From Pyrinomonadaceae bacterium (GTDB lineage Bacteria; Acidobacteriota; Blastocatellia; Pyrinomonadales; Pyrinomonadaceae), in NCBI GenBank assembly GCA_030841085.1, contig JAVEDP010000041.1, positions 1 through 64,000 on the forward strand: a stretch of DNA of 64,000 bases, in the 5' to 3' direction. The translations under genes were made by a program, and so were the position numbers. Below are positions 7,949 through 52,718 of this stretch, piece after piece. Position 1 is the stretch's first letter. Every line of letters starts with the position of its first letter. The notes beneath the pieces were generated by a model. That model did not search any database. It was not told the origin of the DNA and saw nothing but the letters and a program-made list of their open reading frames with translations.

Positions 7949-8007
7949 GTAAAGCAAACTGTTAGTTTGCCTCAATGCGTCCGACGCAAACTAACAGTTT
8001 GCTTTAC
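7949..8007. repeat. Inverted-repeat element, family A copy 1
   Basis: GTAAAGCAAACTGTTAGTTT on the left is matched by its exact reverse complement on the right, around a short spacer. Other copies in the window are at 9450-9533, 13311-13395, 17668-17753 and 52633-52718. The arms are nearly identical between copies while the spacers differ. Confidence 0.9.
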
Positions 8008-9449: not shown

Positions 9450-9533
9450 GTAAAGCAAACTGTTAGTTTGCGGCCGTCCATTGGCTTATAGTTGACAGCT
9501 AACCAACCAACGCAAACTAACAGTTTGCTTTAC
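9450..9533. repeat. Inverted-repeat element, family A copy 2
   Basis: Arms GTAAAGCAAACTGTTAGTTT and its reverse complement, with a spacer of about 40 bp. It lies in the 373-bp gap between the divergent nuoC and rpmE genes; the rest of that gap contains only the putative rpmE promoter. Confidence 0.9.
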
Positions 9534-13303: not shown

Positions 13304-13310
13304 AAAAATT

Positions 13311-13395
13311 GTAAAGCAAACTGTTAGTTTGCGGTGGTTCGTCAGCACCCAACTTGAGTGGCTACCAACCAACGCAAACTAACAGTTTGCTTTAC
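13311..13395. repeat. Inverted-repeat element, family A copy 3
   Basis: Same arms as the copy at 9450. It lies between two convergent genes, so it could act as a bidirectional termination or processing hairpin. Confidence 0.9.
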
Positions 13396-13404
13396 GATAA
13401 CAAC

Positions 13405-13878
13405 TCATGGCGTCGAGATTCGCGCGCGCTCGGCGTTAGCCCAGTCGCAAAGCGTCTTCTTGTCTTCAGCCGAAAGCTTCGAGCCGGGATGCAGCGGAGT
13501 ATAAATGCTCAGCGGCATCTGGCCATCTTGAACCTGTTCACACATGTCTCTCAGCCGGCGAGCTTGTTTGTCCTTATCATAAGCACCCCACTGCGAGAGG
13601 TTCATCGCGCCGCGCGCATCATTCACATCACTAATCACAAGCCAGGACGAAGGCGCCACATTCGAGTACCACGGCCAGCGCGTCTTATTCGAATGACAAT
13701 CATTGCAAGAGCGGTCGAAGATCGCCTCTGCTTGCGGGCTAACTTGTAAATGCGACTCGATAGTCTGGGTTGGATCAATCGCAGGATTTGCCTTGGGCAT
13801 GCGATAAAACTGAATGATGATAAAGCCGGTGGCTAACAAAATAACGAGCCAGCGAAGAACTCTGAATGATCGTTTCAT
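13405..13878 (-). CDS. Membrane-anchored haem-binding domain protein (single CxxCH)
   Basis: A 157-residue c-type haem protein. One N-terminal transmembrane helix (LVILLATGFIIIQF) is followed by a periplasmic domain with C58-N-D-C61-H62 in the context CNDCHSNKTRWPWYSN. This is the signature of the Haem_bd family. A later GQMP may give the axial Met. The ATG at 13878 overlaps the stop of the preceding gene as ATGA, so the two are probably translationally coupled. It is the last gene of a five-gene operon headed by an ECF sigma factor, which suggests electron transfer or sensing in the periplasm. Confidence 0.85.
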   Translation of the reverse strand: MKRSFRVLRWLVILLATGFIIIQFYRMPKANPAIDPTQTIESHLQVSPQAEAIFDRSCNDCHSNKTRWPWYSNVAPSSWLVISDVNDARGAMNLSQWGAYDKDKQARRLRDMCEQVQDGQMPLSIYTPLHPGSKLSAEDKKTLCDWANAERARISTP

Positions 13879-14996
13879 GCTCGTAGTTTTCTCCTGCGCC
13901 ACAGAATAGCGACAGTTGAAAGCAGAGTCACGCCAAGAATTGCAGCGCCATACTTGATGCGGTTGCCGCCGGGAAAAAACGACAGGAAACCTTCCGTAGA
14001 CATTCCTGCTCCCTGGGCCACCGCGGCCTTGACGCTACCCGCATCCTGCGACCCTACGGTCGCGATGATTCTGTTGCTGCCGTCGGCGGAGATCTTTCTA
14101 ACGCGTGGTCCACTCGAGATATTCGGCAAAGTAAATCCAACTTCAAGCACATAAATGGCGCCATCCGGTGACGCGGCGACGCCATTGGGAAAATACGGAG
14201 GATCTGTCCGCAAAACTACTTCTGTTTTTCGGTCCGGATTAATCCTAAGGAGCCGGCGGTTTCCTGCGTCGGCAACGTAAACTGATCCGGAAGAGCTAAC
14301 TGCCAAACCGGTCAGGCTTCCGTACGCTGTGCCAAATAATGAGGGCTTGTCATCGACGGTTCTGGTGGTTAGCTCTCGGGCCAAAGTCGTTACCGAACCC
14401 TCCATCGTTACTTTCCGCACGGCAGCACCATCGCTGAGATACAAGCTGCCATCTGGTCCAAACGCCATGCCCCCGACGCTACTGAATTTGGCGGCAGCAC
14501 CCTTGCCGTCCTGGTGACCGTAGGCGCCACCCGCCAAACTTATCACCTGCCCGTCAGGCGAGCGACGCAGCAAAACTGTTCTCATCTTGGTGTGGTTGTT
14601 TTGATCTACTAGATACATGTTGCCGTCGCGATCCAACCAATTGCTCATGCTGCGCGGCGGATGAGTTGTGGGTTCCAATAGATAAGTGCTAGTCCCGTCG
14701 GGTCTCATCTTCCAGACATCGCTCACCCATTTCTGTCCCTCGTAACTGATATCTCCACCATAAATATTGTCCTGCGCATCAATCGTCAGTTCGTGCACAT
14801 GTCTGCCGCTGACACCGGCGCGAAACACAGAAAGCCTTCCCTGTTTGTCGATCTTCCAAACAGTTTCCAGGTCGCTGAAGTAAACATTTCCGGCGCGATC
14901 CAAAACGATACCCGTGGCGGGATGAGCAGCTGCTGCTGAAAACAAGAATAGCGGCGTGAACAACACAAGCATCACGATTAAGAACTTATGTTTCAT
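13875..14996 (-). CDS. Exported, membrane-anchored beta-propeller (NHL/SMP-30-like)
   Basis: A 373-residue protein with an N-terminal signal peptide (KFLIVMLVLFTPLFLFSAAA). Repeated blades follow, of the form GIVLDRAGNVYFSDL, LTIDAQDNIYGGD and LAVSSSGSVYVADAGNRRLL. It ends in a single C-terminal transmembrane helix and a positive tail (VAILWRRRKLRA), so the propeller should face the periplasm. The ATG at 14996 is preferred to a TTG at 15029. Propellers of this type bind ligands or partner proteins, or hydrolyse lactones; no catalytic assignment is possible here. It overlaps the haem-binding gene downstream. Confidence 0.8.
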   Translation of the reverse strand: MKHKFLIVMLVLFTPLFLFSAAAAHPATGIVLDRAGNVYFSDLETVWKIDKQGRLSVFRAGVSGRHVHELTIDAQDNIYGGDISYEGQKWVSDVWKMRPDGTSTYLLEPTTHPPRSMSNWLDRDGNMYLVDQNNHTKMRTVLLRRSPDGQVISLAGGAYGHQDGKGAAAKFSSVGGMAFGPDGSLYLSDGAAVRKVTMEGSVTTLARELTTRTVDDKPSLFGTAYGSLTGLAVSSSGSVYVADAGNRRLLRINPDRKTEVVLRTDPPYFPNGVAASPDGAIYVLEVGFTLPNISSGPRVRKISADGSNRIIATVGSQDAGSVKAAVAQGAGMSTEGFLSFFPGGNRIKYGAAILGVTLLSTVAILWRRRKLRA

Positions 14997-15029
14997 GAAG
15001 ACTCCGATACGGCAGCAACACAATATCAA

Positions 15030-15689
15030 TCAGCGTCCGGTACAATTGGTCGAGCAGCGTTCAACTTTTATGTCGCGGACTCCTCTCAACACGCCATCAG
15101 CGCCGCGGGTCAGTTTGAGAATGGAACCAAAGGTTCCCTCGCCCGCGAGCTTCCCACGCATTTCCGGAGTAATGAATGTATCGCCCTCAAACAAGAACTC
15201 ATCGATCCAGTACTCGGGATATCCGGGTCCGGATACAAACGCATGAATGTGAGCAGGATTGTTGCGTCCCGGATAAGGCGCGGGCTTTATCGTGCGAAAC
15301 TCGTAACGCCCCTCAGCGTTCGTTCGCAGCAAGCCATGAATACGCGTGTTGCGATTATCGCCGCCACTTTCCGACAGCTTGGAATAATGGCCGGTAGCGT
15401 CCGTTTGATAGACCCACAAATTCATTCCCGGCAAAGGCGTGCGCCCATCAGGCGCGTAGATCGTTCCTGAGATGATCAGCGGATCGCCCGGCTCATTGTC
15501 TAATACCGTCGCGATCTTCCAGGGTAAGTTTGGTGAGTTGGTGTTCAGAGCTGCCCTTACCCGGGTTTGGCCCCGACAACCCCACATACTAAGCAAGCCT
15601 AGTTGCAAAGATGGCAACGCCATTGCAAACAGCGAAGCATGCTTAATAAAACTTCTGCGACTAAAGTTCCGGGACTGATTGTTCCGCAT
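15030..15689 (-). CDS. Tat-exported intradiol ring-cleavage dioxygenase-like protein
   Basis: A 219-residue protein of the protocatechuate 3,4-dioxygenase superfamily. A twin-arginine signal (SRRSFIK at 10-16) is followed by a hydrophobic stretch. The four non-haem Fe(III) ligands of the family appear to be conserved: Tyr102 (DATGHYSK), Tyr139 (IKPAPYPGRN), His147 and His149 (PAHIH). An active intradiol dioxygenase would open catechol-type rings, but here the protein would be folded in the cytoplasm and exported. Its operon partners are a sigma/anti-sigma pair, a propeller and a haem protein, and no aromatic catabolism genes are near. The substrate is unknown. Confidence 0.83.
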   Translation of the reverse strand: MRNNQSRNFSRRSFIKHASLFAMALPSLQLGLLSMWGCRGQTRVRAALNTNSPNLPWKIATVLDNEPGDPLIISGTIYAPDGRTPLPGMNLWVYQTDATGHYSKLSESGGDNRNTRIHGLLRTNAEGRYEFRTIKPAPYPGRNNPAHIHAFVSGPGYPEYWIDEFLFEGDTFITPEMRGKLAGEGTFGSILKLTRGADGVLRGVRDIKVERCSTNCTGR

Positions 15690-15720
15690 GTTTGTCTTCT
15701 CCTGATTAAGTCTTTGACTG

Positions 15721-16920
15721 CTAACGTACCAGTCCCCTTACCTCGCCAACTGCGCGAATCCAGAGGCCAACTGTCTTCTGCGGTTGGGACTCGCGAGTCC
15801 AGGTTGTCTCCATTTTGTCTCGCCACTGTTGCAGCATTTGCTCGTTGAGTTGCAAGACTCCTTCGCGCGAAACTCCATCCGGCGGCGCGACCAGCAGAGT
15901 CAAACGATCGTAGACGCGCTCGCGATCGGTTCCCTGGACGCGGGGAAGTAGATGCCACAAAGTCAACGAGTCGCGCGGTCTCGCCTGACCCAAAAGGACA
16001 TCAAGCGTTGGAATTATGGACCAGTTTTTATCGTTCGGTTCGAAATCAAACTTTGAAAGTGCCAGTCGAAACGGTTGCGACGCATCTTCAAAGTACGGCG
16101 TGCCCGGTCCAATCCCGGGACGCGTCGCGCAACTCGCGCCCGCCGGGACCATTGACTCCCTGTCCTTCAGCTGTAGCGCAACCCACCCCATCGTAACGTG
16201 CAAGAGTCCCGCGCCATTGTCGTCAACCTCCAGCGTGTACGCACAACCAAGATCCGCGGCCACCGCCGCAGGCGTGTCGACAAAGAACAGCCGCGGCGGC
16301 GCCCAAATCCTCGCGCTCATCTTTCCACGCGCAAGCTCGAGTCGATGTTCCGTGGCTCTTGCTGTCACCAGGCGCACGCGCGTATTCGGATCGATCTCCA
16401 CCTGGCCAATTGAACCGACATCAATCTGCGCGCGCGAGGAGCCATCAGTCTCCAGCCACTCGCCCAACGCCAGCCGGCCTTTTTCATCGATGGGTAACGA
16501 GGCAATTCGTGGAGAACCATTGAGCCGAACTACTTCCCAGAAAGGCAGTGACGGTCGCGGGTAAAAATAAAGCGCGCCGATACCGGTAATAAGAAGCAAC
16601 ACCGCGGCCACCGGCACCAAACGCCAACTTCGCAAGGTAGACTTTCGCCCGGAAACCTTTCGCTTGGAAACAAGCGAATGCGGTTCCTTCACGAGCGTAC
16701 CAACGGCGTCCAATTGAACCTGGAACTCGAGCCAGAGTGAGTCCGGAGCGGACAGTTGCGGCAATCGCTCCGCGAGTTTTACTCCGAGCTTTATCTCTTC
16801 AAACTGCTCGCGACAGCGGTTGCAGGCAATCAAGTGCTCGGCAATCCGGCGCGAGTCTTCGCCGGAGATTTCACCATGGCAGTAGGCGGATAAGTCTTTG
16901 GCAACGTGCTGCGAAAACAT
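15721..16920 (-). CDS. Anti-sigma factor with zinc-finger and FecR-like domain
   Basis: A 399-residue single-pass membrane protein. The N-terminal anti-sigma zinc-finger domain contains HLIACNRCREQF (the H-x3-C-x2-C pattern). A transmembrane helix (VAAVLLLITGIGALYF) near residue 110 leads to a periplasmic FecR-like region (GEWLETDGSSRAQIDVGSIG). A C-terminal region of about 100 residues has no recognised domain. The gene begins 2 bp after the sigma factor stop, the usual arrangement for an ECF pair. The FecR part implies that a periplasmic signal is relayed to release the sigma factor. Confidence 0.85.
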   Translation of the reverse strand: MFSQHVAKDLSAYCHGEISGEDSRRIAEHLIACNRCREQFEEIKLGVKLAERLPQLSAPDSLWLEFQVQLDAVGTLVKEPHSLVSKRKVSGRKSTLRSWRLVPVAAVLLLITGIGALYFYPRPSLPFWEVVRLNGSPRIASLPIDEKGRLALGEWLETDGSSRAQIDVGSIGQVEIDPNTRVRLVTARATEHRLELARGKMSARIWAPPRLFFVDTPAAVAADLGCAYTLEVDDNGAGLLHVTMGWVALQLKDRESMVPAGASCATRPGIGPGTPYFEDASQPFRLALSKFDFEPNDKNWSIIPTLDVLLGQARPRDSLTLWHLLPRVQGTDRERVYDRLTLLVAPPDGVSREGVLQLNEQMLQQWRDKMETTWTRESQPQKTVGLWIRAVGEVRGLVR

Positions 16921-16922
16921 TT

Positions 16923-17513
16923 CTAATCTCCCAAAACAACTTCGCCCCGCAAGTGATATAGCTTTCTGGCAAGGGCCTGATGGCCACGATTAAGTCGAGA
17001 GGCCACCGTACCCTTTGAGCAACCTAGTACGTTGGCGATTTCTTCGTAGGAAAGTCCTTCGACATACTTCAACAGTATCGGCAGGCGCCATTTCGGTTTC
17101 AATTCCTGGATTGCCGCTCGGACGCAGTCGGCAACTTCACGTTTCGCATAATGTTTCTCCGGCCCCCTTCTATCTGCGACCTTGCTCATCGGATTCGATT
17201 CTCCAAACGGAAGAAAGCGTCTGCGCTTTCGTTGCTCGTCGATGCAGGTGTTTACGACCATGCGATAGAGCCAGGTGGTAAAAGCGGAATCGCCGCGAAA
17301 CTGGCCGATGTTCGTCATTAGCTTCAGAAAGATCTGTTGCGAAACGTCGCTGGCCGCTGCTTGATCACCGCCCAATGAATAGACTGCGATAGAAAACACC
17401 TTGTCCTTGTAGCTATCAAACAACAGACCAAAGGCATCCCTGTCCCCCTGCTGGCAGGCTGCGATGACGCGCTCATCAATTGTCGGTTCCGCCATTAGCG
17501 CGCGCTGCTCCAT
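16923..17513 (-). CDS. RNA polymerase ECF-type sigma factor
   Basis: A 196-residue sigma-70 family protein of the extracytoplasmic function type. Region 2 is represented by DAFGLLFDSYKDKVFSIAVY and DVSQQIFLKLMTNIGQF. Region 4 is represented by LPILLKYVEGLSYEEIANVL and CSKGTVASRLNRGHQALARK, a helix-turn-helix for the -35 box. No region 3 is present. The ATG at 17513 has a GGAGGAGCGG stretch just upstream. It heads an operon with its anti-sigma factor and three exported proteins, which are presumably among its targets. Confidence 0.93.
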   Translation of the reverse strand: MEQRALMAEPTIDERVIAACQQGDRDAFGLLFDSYKDKVFSIAVYSLGGDQAAASDVSQQIFLKLMTNIGQFRGDSAFTTWLYRMVVNTCIDEQRKRRRFLPFGESNPMSKVADRRGPEKHYAKREVADCVRAAIQELKPKWRLPILLKYVEGLSYEEIANVLGCSKGTVASRLNRGHQALARKLYHLRGEVVLGD

Positions 17514-17667: not shown

Positions 17668-17753
17668 GTAAAGCAAACTGTTAGTTTGCGGTGGCACGTT
17701 GTCACTCAAAGCTGAATGCTGCGCAACCGCCGCAAACTAACAGTTTGCTTTAC
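17668..17753. repeat. Inverted-repeat element, family A copy 4
   Basis: Same arms as the other family A copies. It lies between a stop codon at 17783 and the terminator hairpin. Confidence 0.9.
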
Positions 17754-44504: not shown

Positions 44505-44608
44505 AGTAGGACAGACATTCCTGTCTGTCCCTCCGCGCTAGATTTCAAATCTGAAATCTGAAATTTCAGATTTAATCAAAATGGACAGGCAGGAATGCCT
44601 GTCCTACT
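44505..44608. repeat. Nested repeat: family B arms around a family H palindrome
   Basis: The outer arms are GTAGGACAGACATTCCTG and its inverted relative near 44583. The interior, 44537-44573, is a palindrome of AAATCTGAAATCTGAAATTT and CAGATTT. The same AAATTTCAGATTTGA text recurs inside the GT39 coding region at 49651-49860. Confidence 0.85.
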
Positions 44609-46473
44609 TACGGAACGATTTCAAGCGCAATCAACTGTTGTCCCGAAACTACGAATTCGGCCGGCGGCAATTCGAACTCATAAACCGGCGACAAGACCGT
44701 CGGTGTGTAGCCCCCCGAATTTCGATCGCTGTTCAGCGTAGCCACAACCGAAGGCGGCAGATTCGGCAGTTCACTTGTGCCGATAACCGCGCCGGGAGTG
44801 ATGCGGAACAGTTTCACGTAGAGCCGGTCGCTCTTCTTCACTTTGTTAATGGCCCGCACCAACTGGCCCAGGTCCTGCGGTACGAAAGCCCGGGACGCCG
44901 AGCCTTCCTGCAACGCGCCACCATCGCCAACAAACACCAGCAACTGGCCCGGCGTCGCATCGTTCGGAATTTGCACCGGTATGCGCTGGACAAATTGTTT
45001 TCCAGATTCGGTCCTGACGTAAGCTTGCACCTCGATTTGTTCGCCGCGGTGCGCTTCCGTCTTATTCAGGGCAATGCGTTCGAGGGTCGCTGCATACTTG
45101 GTGTCGGTCGAGGAAATGTCGAGGTTCACGCCTTCGATTTGCACGTCGTCAAATCCACTGCCGAGCAGCGAGCTAATTGGTCCAGCAACCGAGCCGGCTG
45201 CGAGCACCGGCGAATTGGCCGCGGAAAAGCGCCGGTCCAGTTCAATGGATTCCTGTCCACGGACGTTGATATTGCCCTTGATCGTAATCGTCGAGTCGCC
45301 AAGCCCTCGCTCGCTCGAGGTGATCGTGTTGTAGACGGTTAGATTCAACAGCAGCGGCGTCAGAAAAGAATCGTTGGCGATCTCGTAAGAATAAGTGTCA
45401 CTGCGATCGCGGCTGGTGTGCAACTTGATCTTCACCGGAATCATTTTGGGCGCCTGACCCAATTCGCCGAAAACTCCAGACGCGCGATCCTGCGAAATCG
45501 ATCCCATCATCGTTCCCGGAATGGAAAGCTTAAACGAGTTATTGACGTTGGGAATGACGGTGACGACTGCCGTCTCGCTCATCGGCATGTCTGAAGCGCC
45601 CAAACTGAGAAATGGGTGGCCGAATGCATAAATGTGATTGCCGTCGCGAAACGTAACTGTGCCGGCCGCCGCGATCGAATAATCGCCGCGAACCAACTGG
45701 ACACTGATTGACGTTCCCGGTGTCAGCGTCTTTTCGTTCGGCGTACCAAGCGGCGTGATGTTAGCGGAACCGCCTGCTCCTGAAACCGGAAGCAGGCCAT
45801 TGGCCATAAGCTGCGGGGCAAACATTCCCAACGATTCCTGGCTAATGCCACCAAACACCATCGGCGTGGCAATCGGAACCATCTGCTGGCCGAGCAAAGG
45901 CATCAGGGGCGAACCTTGGGAAACGGGTGCAATCAGCGAAGCAGAAGTGACAGATTGTTTCGGCAGGTTTGGCTTCCAATCGGCGGAGGCTAACTGTGCG
46001 AAAGAAAATGCGCGCGGTTCTCTCGGGCCTCGGCGATTGTCGGCCGTGCCTTTCTCAAAGAGGTCGATCATTTGTTTGATCGGCGTAATGCCGGCTATCG
46101 GCTCTTTCGAAAATGGAAAACTAAAGGCAATCGCGCCGACTAATTTGTTATCGATGTAAACCGGCGAACCGGATATACCGGCAAAGACTCCGGTCTTTTC
46201 CACGTTCGCTCCGCTGAGCCTGGCGATGATTGCCGACTGTCTCGGACCGGGAAAACCGGGCAAAACGCCCAGGATTTCAACGGAAAATTCCTGCGGCTCG
46301 GTGCCCGAAAAAACAGTCTGGGCAGTCCCCTTCATGCCGGGACGAAGATCTTCAAGGGGAAAAAGCCTGACATCCGGACCGGGCAGGACGACCGCCGGTT
46401 TCTGTGCCAGAGCTGAACCGCTGAGAACTCCCAGCAGGATCGAAAACAACAAAACGTTGGCAAATCTTTTCAT
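44608..46473 (-). CDS. Exported SpoIVB-peptidase-S55-domain protein
   Basis: A 621-residue protein with a signal peptide (VLLFSILLGVLSGSALAQ). The N-terminal domain resembles peptidase family S55: LRPGMKGTAQTVFSGTEPQEF and the catalytic-type GVFAGISGSPVYIDNKLVGA around residues 95-115. The remainder is beta-rich, with repeated segments of unclear fold. S55 peptidases act in sporulation signalling in Bacillus, but no sporulation genes are seen here. Acidobacterial relatives are presumably periplasmic proteases or PDZ-like scaffolds. The ATG at 46473 has a GAGG ribosome-binding site. Confidence 0.85.
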   Translation of the reverse strand: MKRFANVLLFSILLGVLSGSALAQKPAVVLPGPDVRLFPLEDLRPGMKGTAQTVFSGTEPQEFSVEILGVLPGFPGPRQSAIIARLSGANVEKTGVFAGISGSPVYIDNKLVGAIAFSFPFSKEPIAGITPIKQMIDLFEKGTADNRRGPREPRAFSFAQLASADWKPNLPKQSVTSASLIAPVSQGSPLMPLLGQQMVPIATPMVFGGISQESLGMFAPQLMANGLLPVSGAGGSANITPLGTPNEKTLTPGTSISVQLVRGDYSIAAAGTVTFRDGNHIYAFGHPFLSLGASDMPMSETAVVTVIPNVNNSFKLSIPGTMMGSISQDRASGVFGELGQAPKMIPVKIKLHTSRDRSDTYSYEIANDSFLTPLLLNLTVYNTITSSERGLGDSTITIKGNINVRGQESIELDRRFSAANSPVLAAGSVAGPISSLLGSGFDDVQIEGVNLDISSTDTKYAATLERIALNKTEAHRGEQIEVQAYVRTESGKQFVQRIPVQIPNDATPGQLLVFVGDGGALQEGSASRAFVPQDLGQLVRAINKVKKSDRLYVKLFRITPGAVIGTSELPNLPPSVVATLNSDRNSGGYTPTVLSPVYEFELPPAEFVVSGQQLIALEIVP

Positions 46474-46710
46474 TAAAACCTCTTTGTTACTACAAATCGA
46501 CGGCGTCAAACGCCGGTTGTTGGACTATAGCTTTCGCCCCTACATGGGTCAAGCTAGTTATAAGTATCCCCGCTGAAGCAGCAACTGCAGAATCGCAGGC
46601 TGACTTCTTAGACGCACATTCGAGCCAAATCGTTCCTTGTCGGCCAGCGCATGGCGTGCTAATTTTCCGCCGAACTGTCGCCCAGCCTTACCCTGAACAA
46701 ATGACCATAG

Positions 46711-52636: not shown

Positions 52637-52718
52637 AGCAAACTGTTAGTTTGCGGTGGCTAGTTAGAACTTACCTTGAATTCTTGCTCACCGCCGCAAA
52701 CTAACAGTTTGCTTTACA
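52633..52718. repeat. Inverted-repeat element, family A copy 5
   Basis: Same arms as the other four family A copies, more than 35 kb away from them. It begins in the last codons of the serine hydrolase gene. Confidence 0.9.

Follow-up and report, generated by a model that had tools for sequence, protein, structure and literature searches.

Organization of the locus

We analysed a 64,000-nucleotide stretch of DNA (the window) from a Pyrinomonadaceae bacterium of the class Blastocatellia (assembly GCA_030841085.1, contig JAVEDP010000041.1), in which five tightly packed minus-strand genes (17513-13405) form a predicted operon headed by an extracytoplasmic function (ECF) sigma factor (Table 1). 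A preliminary description of this DNA had placed the genes 2, 31 and 33 bp apart, with one 4-bp ATGA overlap, and we re-found all open reading frames (ORFs) and spacings as given. Pfam agreed with the proposed order—sigma factor (SIG), zinc-finger/FecR anti-sigma factor (ASIG), intradiol-dioxygenase-like protein (IDO), beta-propeller (NHL) and haem protein (HAEM)—returning Sigma70_r2 (1.2e-15) and Sigma70_r4_2 (4.1e-15) for the first, zf-HC2 (2e-6) and FecR (2.3e-6) for the second, Dioxygenase_C PF00775 (5.6e-18) for the third, NHL/TEN_NHL (3e-12) for the fourth and Haem_bd PF14376 (9.3e-43) for the last. An Rfam search gave no match.

Table 1 Features of the sigma factor locus and members of two exported families found beside related loci. 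Coordinates are those of the window unless preceded by the label of a relative's locus.
Feature	Coordinates	Strand	Length	Basis or remark
ECF-type autoregulatory promoter GGAAGC-N17-GTCTAA	17542..17570	-		Read from sequence
ECF sigma factor (SIG)	16923..17513	-	196 aa	Pfam
Membrane anti-sigma factor (ASIG)	15721..16920	-	399 aa	Pfam zf-HC2, FecR
Exported PF00775 intradiol-dioxygenase-like protein (IDO)	15030..15689	-	219 aa	Pfam, fold match
NHL beta-propeller, signal peptide and C-terminal transmembrane segment; variable cargo	13875..14996	-	373 aa	Pfam NHL/TEN_NHL
Haem_bd protein (HAEM), single CxxCH, N-terminal membrane anchor	13405..13878	-	157 aa	PF14376
Palindromic repeat element upstream of the promoter	17668..17753	.		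Boundary, outside the mechanism
Palindromic repeat element between the convergent haem-protein and phosphoglycerate-mutase-like genes	13308..13398	.		Boundary
VHEWGTFT family members	L148:7668-8894, L140:7579-8784, L163:6827-8041, L283 and others
AGPPL family members	L138:3753-4502, L276:2703-3515, L279:5370-6188, L282:7754-8470		~250 aa

With its sigma2 and sigma4 domains, adjoining anti-sigma gene and autoregulatory promoter, SIG has the marks of an ECF sigma factor. Fourteen homologues are encoded elsewhere in the 4.69-Mb genome, each at most 36% identical to it, and none of those placed in a tree fell inside the orthologue clade. ASIG carries the H-X3-C-X2-C zinc motif of zf-HC2 (ZAS) anti-sigma factors ahead of a predicted transmembrane helix; H29, C33 and C36, together with the periplasmic C226, are invariant in 19 relatives. 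By inspection, the hydrophobic segment spans about residues 102-120, and a single transmembrane helix is predicted. A structural model also placed a helix at 102-119, albeit at low confidence (predicted local distance difference test, pLDDT, 46), and was set aside as evidence. The domain plan is thus a cytoplasmic-type zinc-finger sigma-binding motif, one predicted transmembrane helix and a conserved FecR-like periplasmic domain. HAEM combines its haem motif, CNDCH, with export signals, and three Cytochrom_C_asm matches (haem-attachment machinery) lie in the genome, as expected of a putative c-type haem protein.

A specific promoter tracks the operon and IDO

The preliminary description had suggested looking for a sigma factor promoter motif upstream of 17513 and elsewhere. 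Such a motif, GGAAGC-N17-GTCTAA, was indeed found 28 bp upstream of the sigma start codon, as well as before the IDO and haem genes of relatives. Nearly all relatives in which the sigma gene comes first carry GGAAG[A/C/T]-N17-CGTCTAA upstream of it. Our regulon scan of the window's own genome was made with strict patterns, and GGAA-N18-CGTCTAA occurred at only two sites, one being the operon promoter. Sigma-70-type sites were not more frequent than chance.

We then scored IDO genes with a matrix trained solely on 25 sigma-gene promoters, counting hits at a score of at least 10.9 (random 99.9th percentile, 11.0). Matches preceded IDO genes that were either detached or in first position in 14 of 17 sigma-bearing genomes vs none of 13 sigma-less ones (p 4.8e-6), almost always 62-65 bp ahead of the start codon; three of the 14 (genus g3) have a GTCACA variant of the -10 element and the lowest scores. 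At IDO-first loci the motif stands before IDO and is missing before SIG, and detached IDO genes in three genomes (G094, G040, G041) bear it at -62 to -65. The window itself has no internal sigma-type promoter before IDO (matrix score below 0), so its operon is most simply transcribed from the 17570-17542 site.

Further sites of this kind were seen in trans. GGAAGA sites precede FG-GAP lipoproteins (L178, L201) and a YVTN-like propeller (L171) in genomes G097, G116 and G037. A second such promoter lies before the haem gene at three loci (L132, L139 and L141; genomes G109, G039 and G041), and one of the same type before that of L095.

Linkage persists while gene order varies

In the genus, the locus is fixed in place, reading nuoB - gly-zipper gene - SIG - ASIG - IDO - (NHL) - HAEM - PGM - prfA (PGM, phosphoglycerate-mutase-like; nuoB and prfA named by inspection of ORFs). 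All five genes are present in four of its 12 sigma-bearing genomes, and in one of these four the propeller is broken. L034, L036 and L037 lack the propeller altogether, L035 retains a remnant of it, and L032 has it split. In this last, the closest relative, the NHL gene is spread over several ORFs (L032:6329-7562), reflecting either real decay or an assembly error.

A survey of 119 Pyrinomonadaceae genomes, with linkage defined as lying within 7 kb of the anti-sigma gene, returned strong IDO matches in 49 and strong anti-sigma matches in 47. The two genes co-occur (p 3e-4, a value that, like the other p-values, overstates independence because the genomes share ancestry), and IDO is linked in 21 of the 29 genomes with both, two more being split at contig ends; the haem gene is likewise linked in 24 of 39 genomes. 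IDO linkage spans different chromosomal sites and at least five gene orders (SIG-ASIG-IDO, IDO-Kelch-SIG-ASIG, Kelch-IDO-SIG-ASIG, SIG-IDO-ASIG and ASIG-NHL-IDO), with IDO first or second and SIG-ASIG last in the g3, g13, g15 and g23 genomes. On the IDO tree, switch-linked and switch-less members are interspersed, a pattern that suits ancestral control followed by repeated loss of the switch together with the promoter.

The idea of a fixed five-gene unit is therefore rejected: few genus members are complete, the propeller is lost or eroded or gives way to Kelch proteins, FG-GAP proteins or a family with no Pfam match, and cargo is exchanged and reordered farther out. What does hold is that a dedicated sigma factor would drive IDO and the haem protein, as indicated by cross-genus linkage and by a shared promoter that tracks the first gene or a displaced IDO.

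Variable cargo and distribution within Blastocatellia

Between or beside SIG and ASIG we found IDO, NHL, Kelch (L054, L055, L063, L066, L067, L070) and FG-GAP (L133) propellers, an NlpE-like lipoprotein, a family we term VHEWGTFT, and the haem protein; in some genomes (L129, L131) the pair stands alone. In other Blastocatellia families, the arrangements SIG-IDO-ASIG (L280, L281), SIG-ASIG-NHL-HAEM (L290), SIG-ASIG-HAEM (L284) and SIG-ASIG-VHEW (L283, L287) occur, and the promoter is conserved at these loci. Outside the class, 13 sampled genomes carried the anti-sigma family, with neither IDO nor the haem gene detected beside it; six of the 13 loci yielded no called anti-sigma ORF. Conservation of the five-gene order across Acidobacteriota, as raised earlier, thus narrows to a module that recurs, in varying orders, within Blastocatellia and, in our sample, not beyond. 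Anti-sigma genes paralogous to ASIG adjoin AhpC/TSA or DoxX genes and other PF00775 proteins; we count the AhpC/TSA and DoxX neighbours, being of redox type, in favour of the redox response proposed below.

Two exported families recur at these loci. VHEWGTFT proteins (~400 aa; VHEWGTFTS(I/V)AGKDG...EWRPLN) repeatedly adjoin this sigma/anti-sigma pair (L128, L137, L140, L146, L148, L155, L054) and match no significant Pfam family. A second family of ~250 aa, AGPPL(L/I)C(R/H)P..., lies immediately 3' of the anti-sigma gene, and the two members scanned had no Pfam match. The NlpE-like lipoprotein gene (PF04170; L055:9217-10080) sits between a Kelch propeller and the sigma gene, with a related gene in the same place in L056.

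IDO keeps its iron site with an altered second shell

IDO bears the motif SRRSFIK and the genome has one TatC match, in line with the twin-arginine translocation (Tat) export proposed for it. R11, R12, F14 and C38 are invariant in the genus; in the wider IDO clade, too, a Tat motif and a cysteine at the lipobox position are common. Since the lipobox around C38 (MWGC) is imperfect, lipidation is probable only, and we regard IDO as probably a Tat lipoprotein. The preliminary description had called intradiol dioxygenases normally cytoplasmic, which overlooks exported ones such as SACTE_2871; fungi, Streptomyces and spider mites secrete intradiol dioxygenases that act on plant phenolics (PMC9167512).

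The four iron ligands, as the description had pointed out, are all visible; Y102, Y139, H147 and H149 are invariant in 24 relatives. A structural model of IDO (pLDDT 68, core residues mostly above 70) had its best fold match in SACTE_2871 (PDB 4ilt/4ilv; Foldseek E 2.5e-14, template modelling score 0.73 by target), and fold and 2-Tyr/2-His non-haem iron site together place it in the PF00775 superfamily. In classical enzymes of the superfamily, a second-shell Arg and Gln assist catalysis. Window IDO has N and E at the positions of this Arg (R457, RPAHIH) and Gln (Q477, TQ), and most members of the IDO clade have Glu or Ser in place of the Gln; PDB 2buv, an R457S mutant of protocatechuate dioxygenase, is among the Foldseek matches. 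The second-shell pair of catechol 1,2- and protocatechuate 3,4-dioxygenases is thus missing, and at 52 vs 296 bits IDO does not come near the NCBIfam equivalog cut-offs; as a catechol or protocatechuate dioxygenase it is putative only.

IDO is the sole PF00775 match in its genome, and the muconolactone isomerase family PF02426 (MIase) has none, which together argue against catabolism. The earlier statement that the operon lacks catabolic genes was borne out, none being seen; for the beta-ketoadipate pathway as a whole, the genome-wide absence concerns PF02426, pcaB, pcaC and pcaD not having been searched.

A candidate envelope response to phenolic or redox stress

Because switch, promoter and cargo recur across the class, they constitute a real but undescribed envelope response. 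In the literature we found no paper with both Blastocatellia and intradiol and no description of the regulon, with subscription journals largely outside the coverage and an earlier description therefore possible. Judging from sequence, its core is very probably an autoregulated ECF sigma switch with exported cargo that forms a regulon of Blastocatellia. That the response deals in phenolic or redox chemistry is an evenly balanced proposition, and an envelope response to phenolic or redox stress, which we consider the best reading overall, carries about the same even confidence.

Under this model, the periplasmic FecR-like domain with its invariant Cys226 would sense an envelope signal, upon which the anti-sigma factor would release the sigma factor and the operon be induced. 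IDO, as a lipid-anchored Fe(III) protein, may then act outside the cytoplasm to oxidise a compound of the catechol or phenol type, with the haem protein acting as an electron carrier or redox sensor and the interchangeable propeller as a binding or scaffold partner. The regulon output would remodel the cell envelope, likely to protect it against soil phenolics or the redox cycling that they undergo, and not to serve catabolism.

Several observations weigh against this model. The Arg three residues before HxH (H-3 Arg) is absent from all 44 IDO-clade members, while four of the distant paralogues keep it. Many genomes have the sigma factor and lack IDO, many others have IDO and lack the sigma factor, in most genomes the haem gene stands away from the sigma pair, and the genomes counted, sharing ancestry, are not independent. 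No second specific promoter site turned up in the window's own genome with the strict patterns, and GGAACA-type sites precede the haem gene also in G032, in which no anti-sigma orthologue was found. GGAAC being a common ECF -35 element, these G032 sites lead us not to claim the haem gene as a general trans target.

Alternatively, IDO could be a lipoprotein without enzymatic activity that binds a ligand and serves as an Fe(III) sensor or scaffold. Together with the haem protein and the propeller, it would relay a phenolic, iron or redox signal from outside the cell to the anti-sigma factor, which would make the cargo the input of the switch. Invariant iron ligands combined with the missing H-3 Arg and, in most members, the missing Gln would suit such a role, as would the adjacency of the IDO and anti-sigma genes (in L280 and L281, IDO even separates SIG from ASIG), the interchangeable propellers with their typical binding fold, and the NlpE-like lipoprotein of L055. 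However, many genomes keep the switch without IDO, sigma-less genomes retain IDO, and the sigma promoter is preserved ahead of detached IDO genes, which favours IDO as an output over a sensor input; we consider this alternative unlikely.

Less probable still is that IDO is a conventional secreted dioxygenase of catechol or lignin phenolics, similar to SACTE_2871, which feeds carbon catabolism under an ECF switch sensing plant material. SACTE_2871 is the best structural match, and secreted enzymes of the superfamily cleave plant phenolics (PMC9167512), but the Arg and usually also the Gln are replaced, the operon has no catabolic genes, the varying sigma cargo includes no polysaccharide or lignin genes, and the genome has neither a muconolactone isomerase nor a second PF00775 match, other pathway steps not having been searched. 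A generic ECF/anti-sigma pair with an accidental mixture of exported neighbours would fit the partial five-gene order within the genus, the varying cargo and the solitary pairs of L129 and L131, but is very improbable, as the same few families accompany the switch at different sites, in different orders and in other taxonomic families with a specific promoter tracking them. The promoter test largely refutes this explanation, which survives only if the promoter match is due to descent alone.

Returning to the envelope response, the earlier proposal of an oxidation or sensing module is still a hypothesis: the IDO clade retains the iron site but is without the Arg—and mostly also the Gln—of characterised enzymes. 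We put forward, tentatively and as a doubtful possibility, that the IDO clade under sigma control represents a functionally new type of PF00775 protein: iron-binding, lipid-anchored in the envelope, devoid of the classical catalytic Arg/Gln, serving redox protection or signalling instead of catabolism, and central to a hitherto undescribed ECF regulon that Blastocatellia have conserved.

Few stress systems have been characterised in Blastocatellia, which are common in soil. With the sigma factor defined, the promoter precise and the list of target families short, this regulon is readable directly from genomes. At the same time, an exported IDO family with an intact iron site and altered second shell, which has kept its regulatory control while its neighbours change, turns the role of exported intradiol dioxygenases outside catabolism into a directly testable question.

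Other features of the window

The other GGAA-N18-CGTCTAA site of the genome (46608-46636, minus strand) is of the generic GGAACG type and lies 98 bp before a gene for an exported SpoIVB/S55-like protein (44608-46509, minus strand; 633 aa, named by inspection), a possible further ECF target that we note as a lead. A perfect 17-bp palindrome, GCAAACTGTTAGTTTGC, is present in ten copies arranged as five inverted pairs (7954-8002, 9455-9528, 13316-13390, 17673-17748 and 52638-52712; 0.02 expected). The element is dispersed and resembles repetitive extragenic palindromic sequences/bacterial interspersed mosaic elements (REP/BIME) or miniature inverted-repeat transposable elements (MITE), with one copy at either end of the sigma operon.

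Comparison with known systems

The switch resembles ECF sigma/zf-HC2 pairs of the SigW, RpoE and RsrA type in its sigma2/sigma4 architecture, its zinc-finger anti-sigma factor with one predicted transmembrane helix and its autoregulatory GGAA...GTC-type promoter. It differs from them in the periplasmic FecR-like domain and C-terminal extension of the anti-sigma factor and in its cargo of exported dioxygenase-like, haem and propeller proteins. With FecI/FecR cell-surface signalling it shares an ECF sigma factor and a periplasmic FecR domain (PF04773), whereas the window's anti-sigma factor has an N-terminal zf-HC2 anti-sigma domain; no TonB-dependent receptor was seen in the operon or the examined neighbours, the rest of the genome not having been searched for receptors.

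Among the exported proteins, HAEM shares a strong family match and the CxxCH motif with other Haem_bd (PF14376) proteins and is set apart by its linkage to this sigma pair in 24 genomes; we came upon no described function for the family. IDO has the PF00775 fold and 2-Tyr/2-His ligands of protocatechuate 3,4-dioxygenase beta and catechol 1,2-dioxygenase, but its Arg457 and Gln477 equivalents are replaced, it is exported and it has no pathway neighbours. It is closer to SACTE_2871, the secreted Streptomyces intradiol dioxygenase, in export, short catalytic domain and fold; unlike that enzyme, it is a probable Tat lipoprotein, shows no sign of a fused binding module and is encoded inside an ECF sigma operon.

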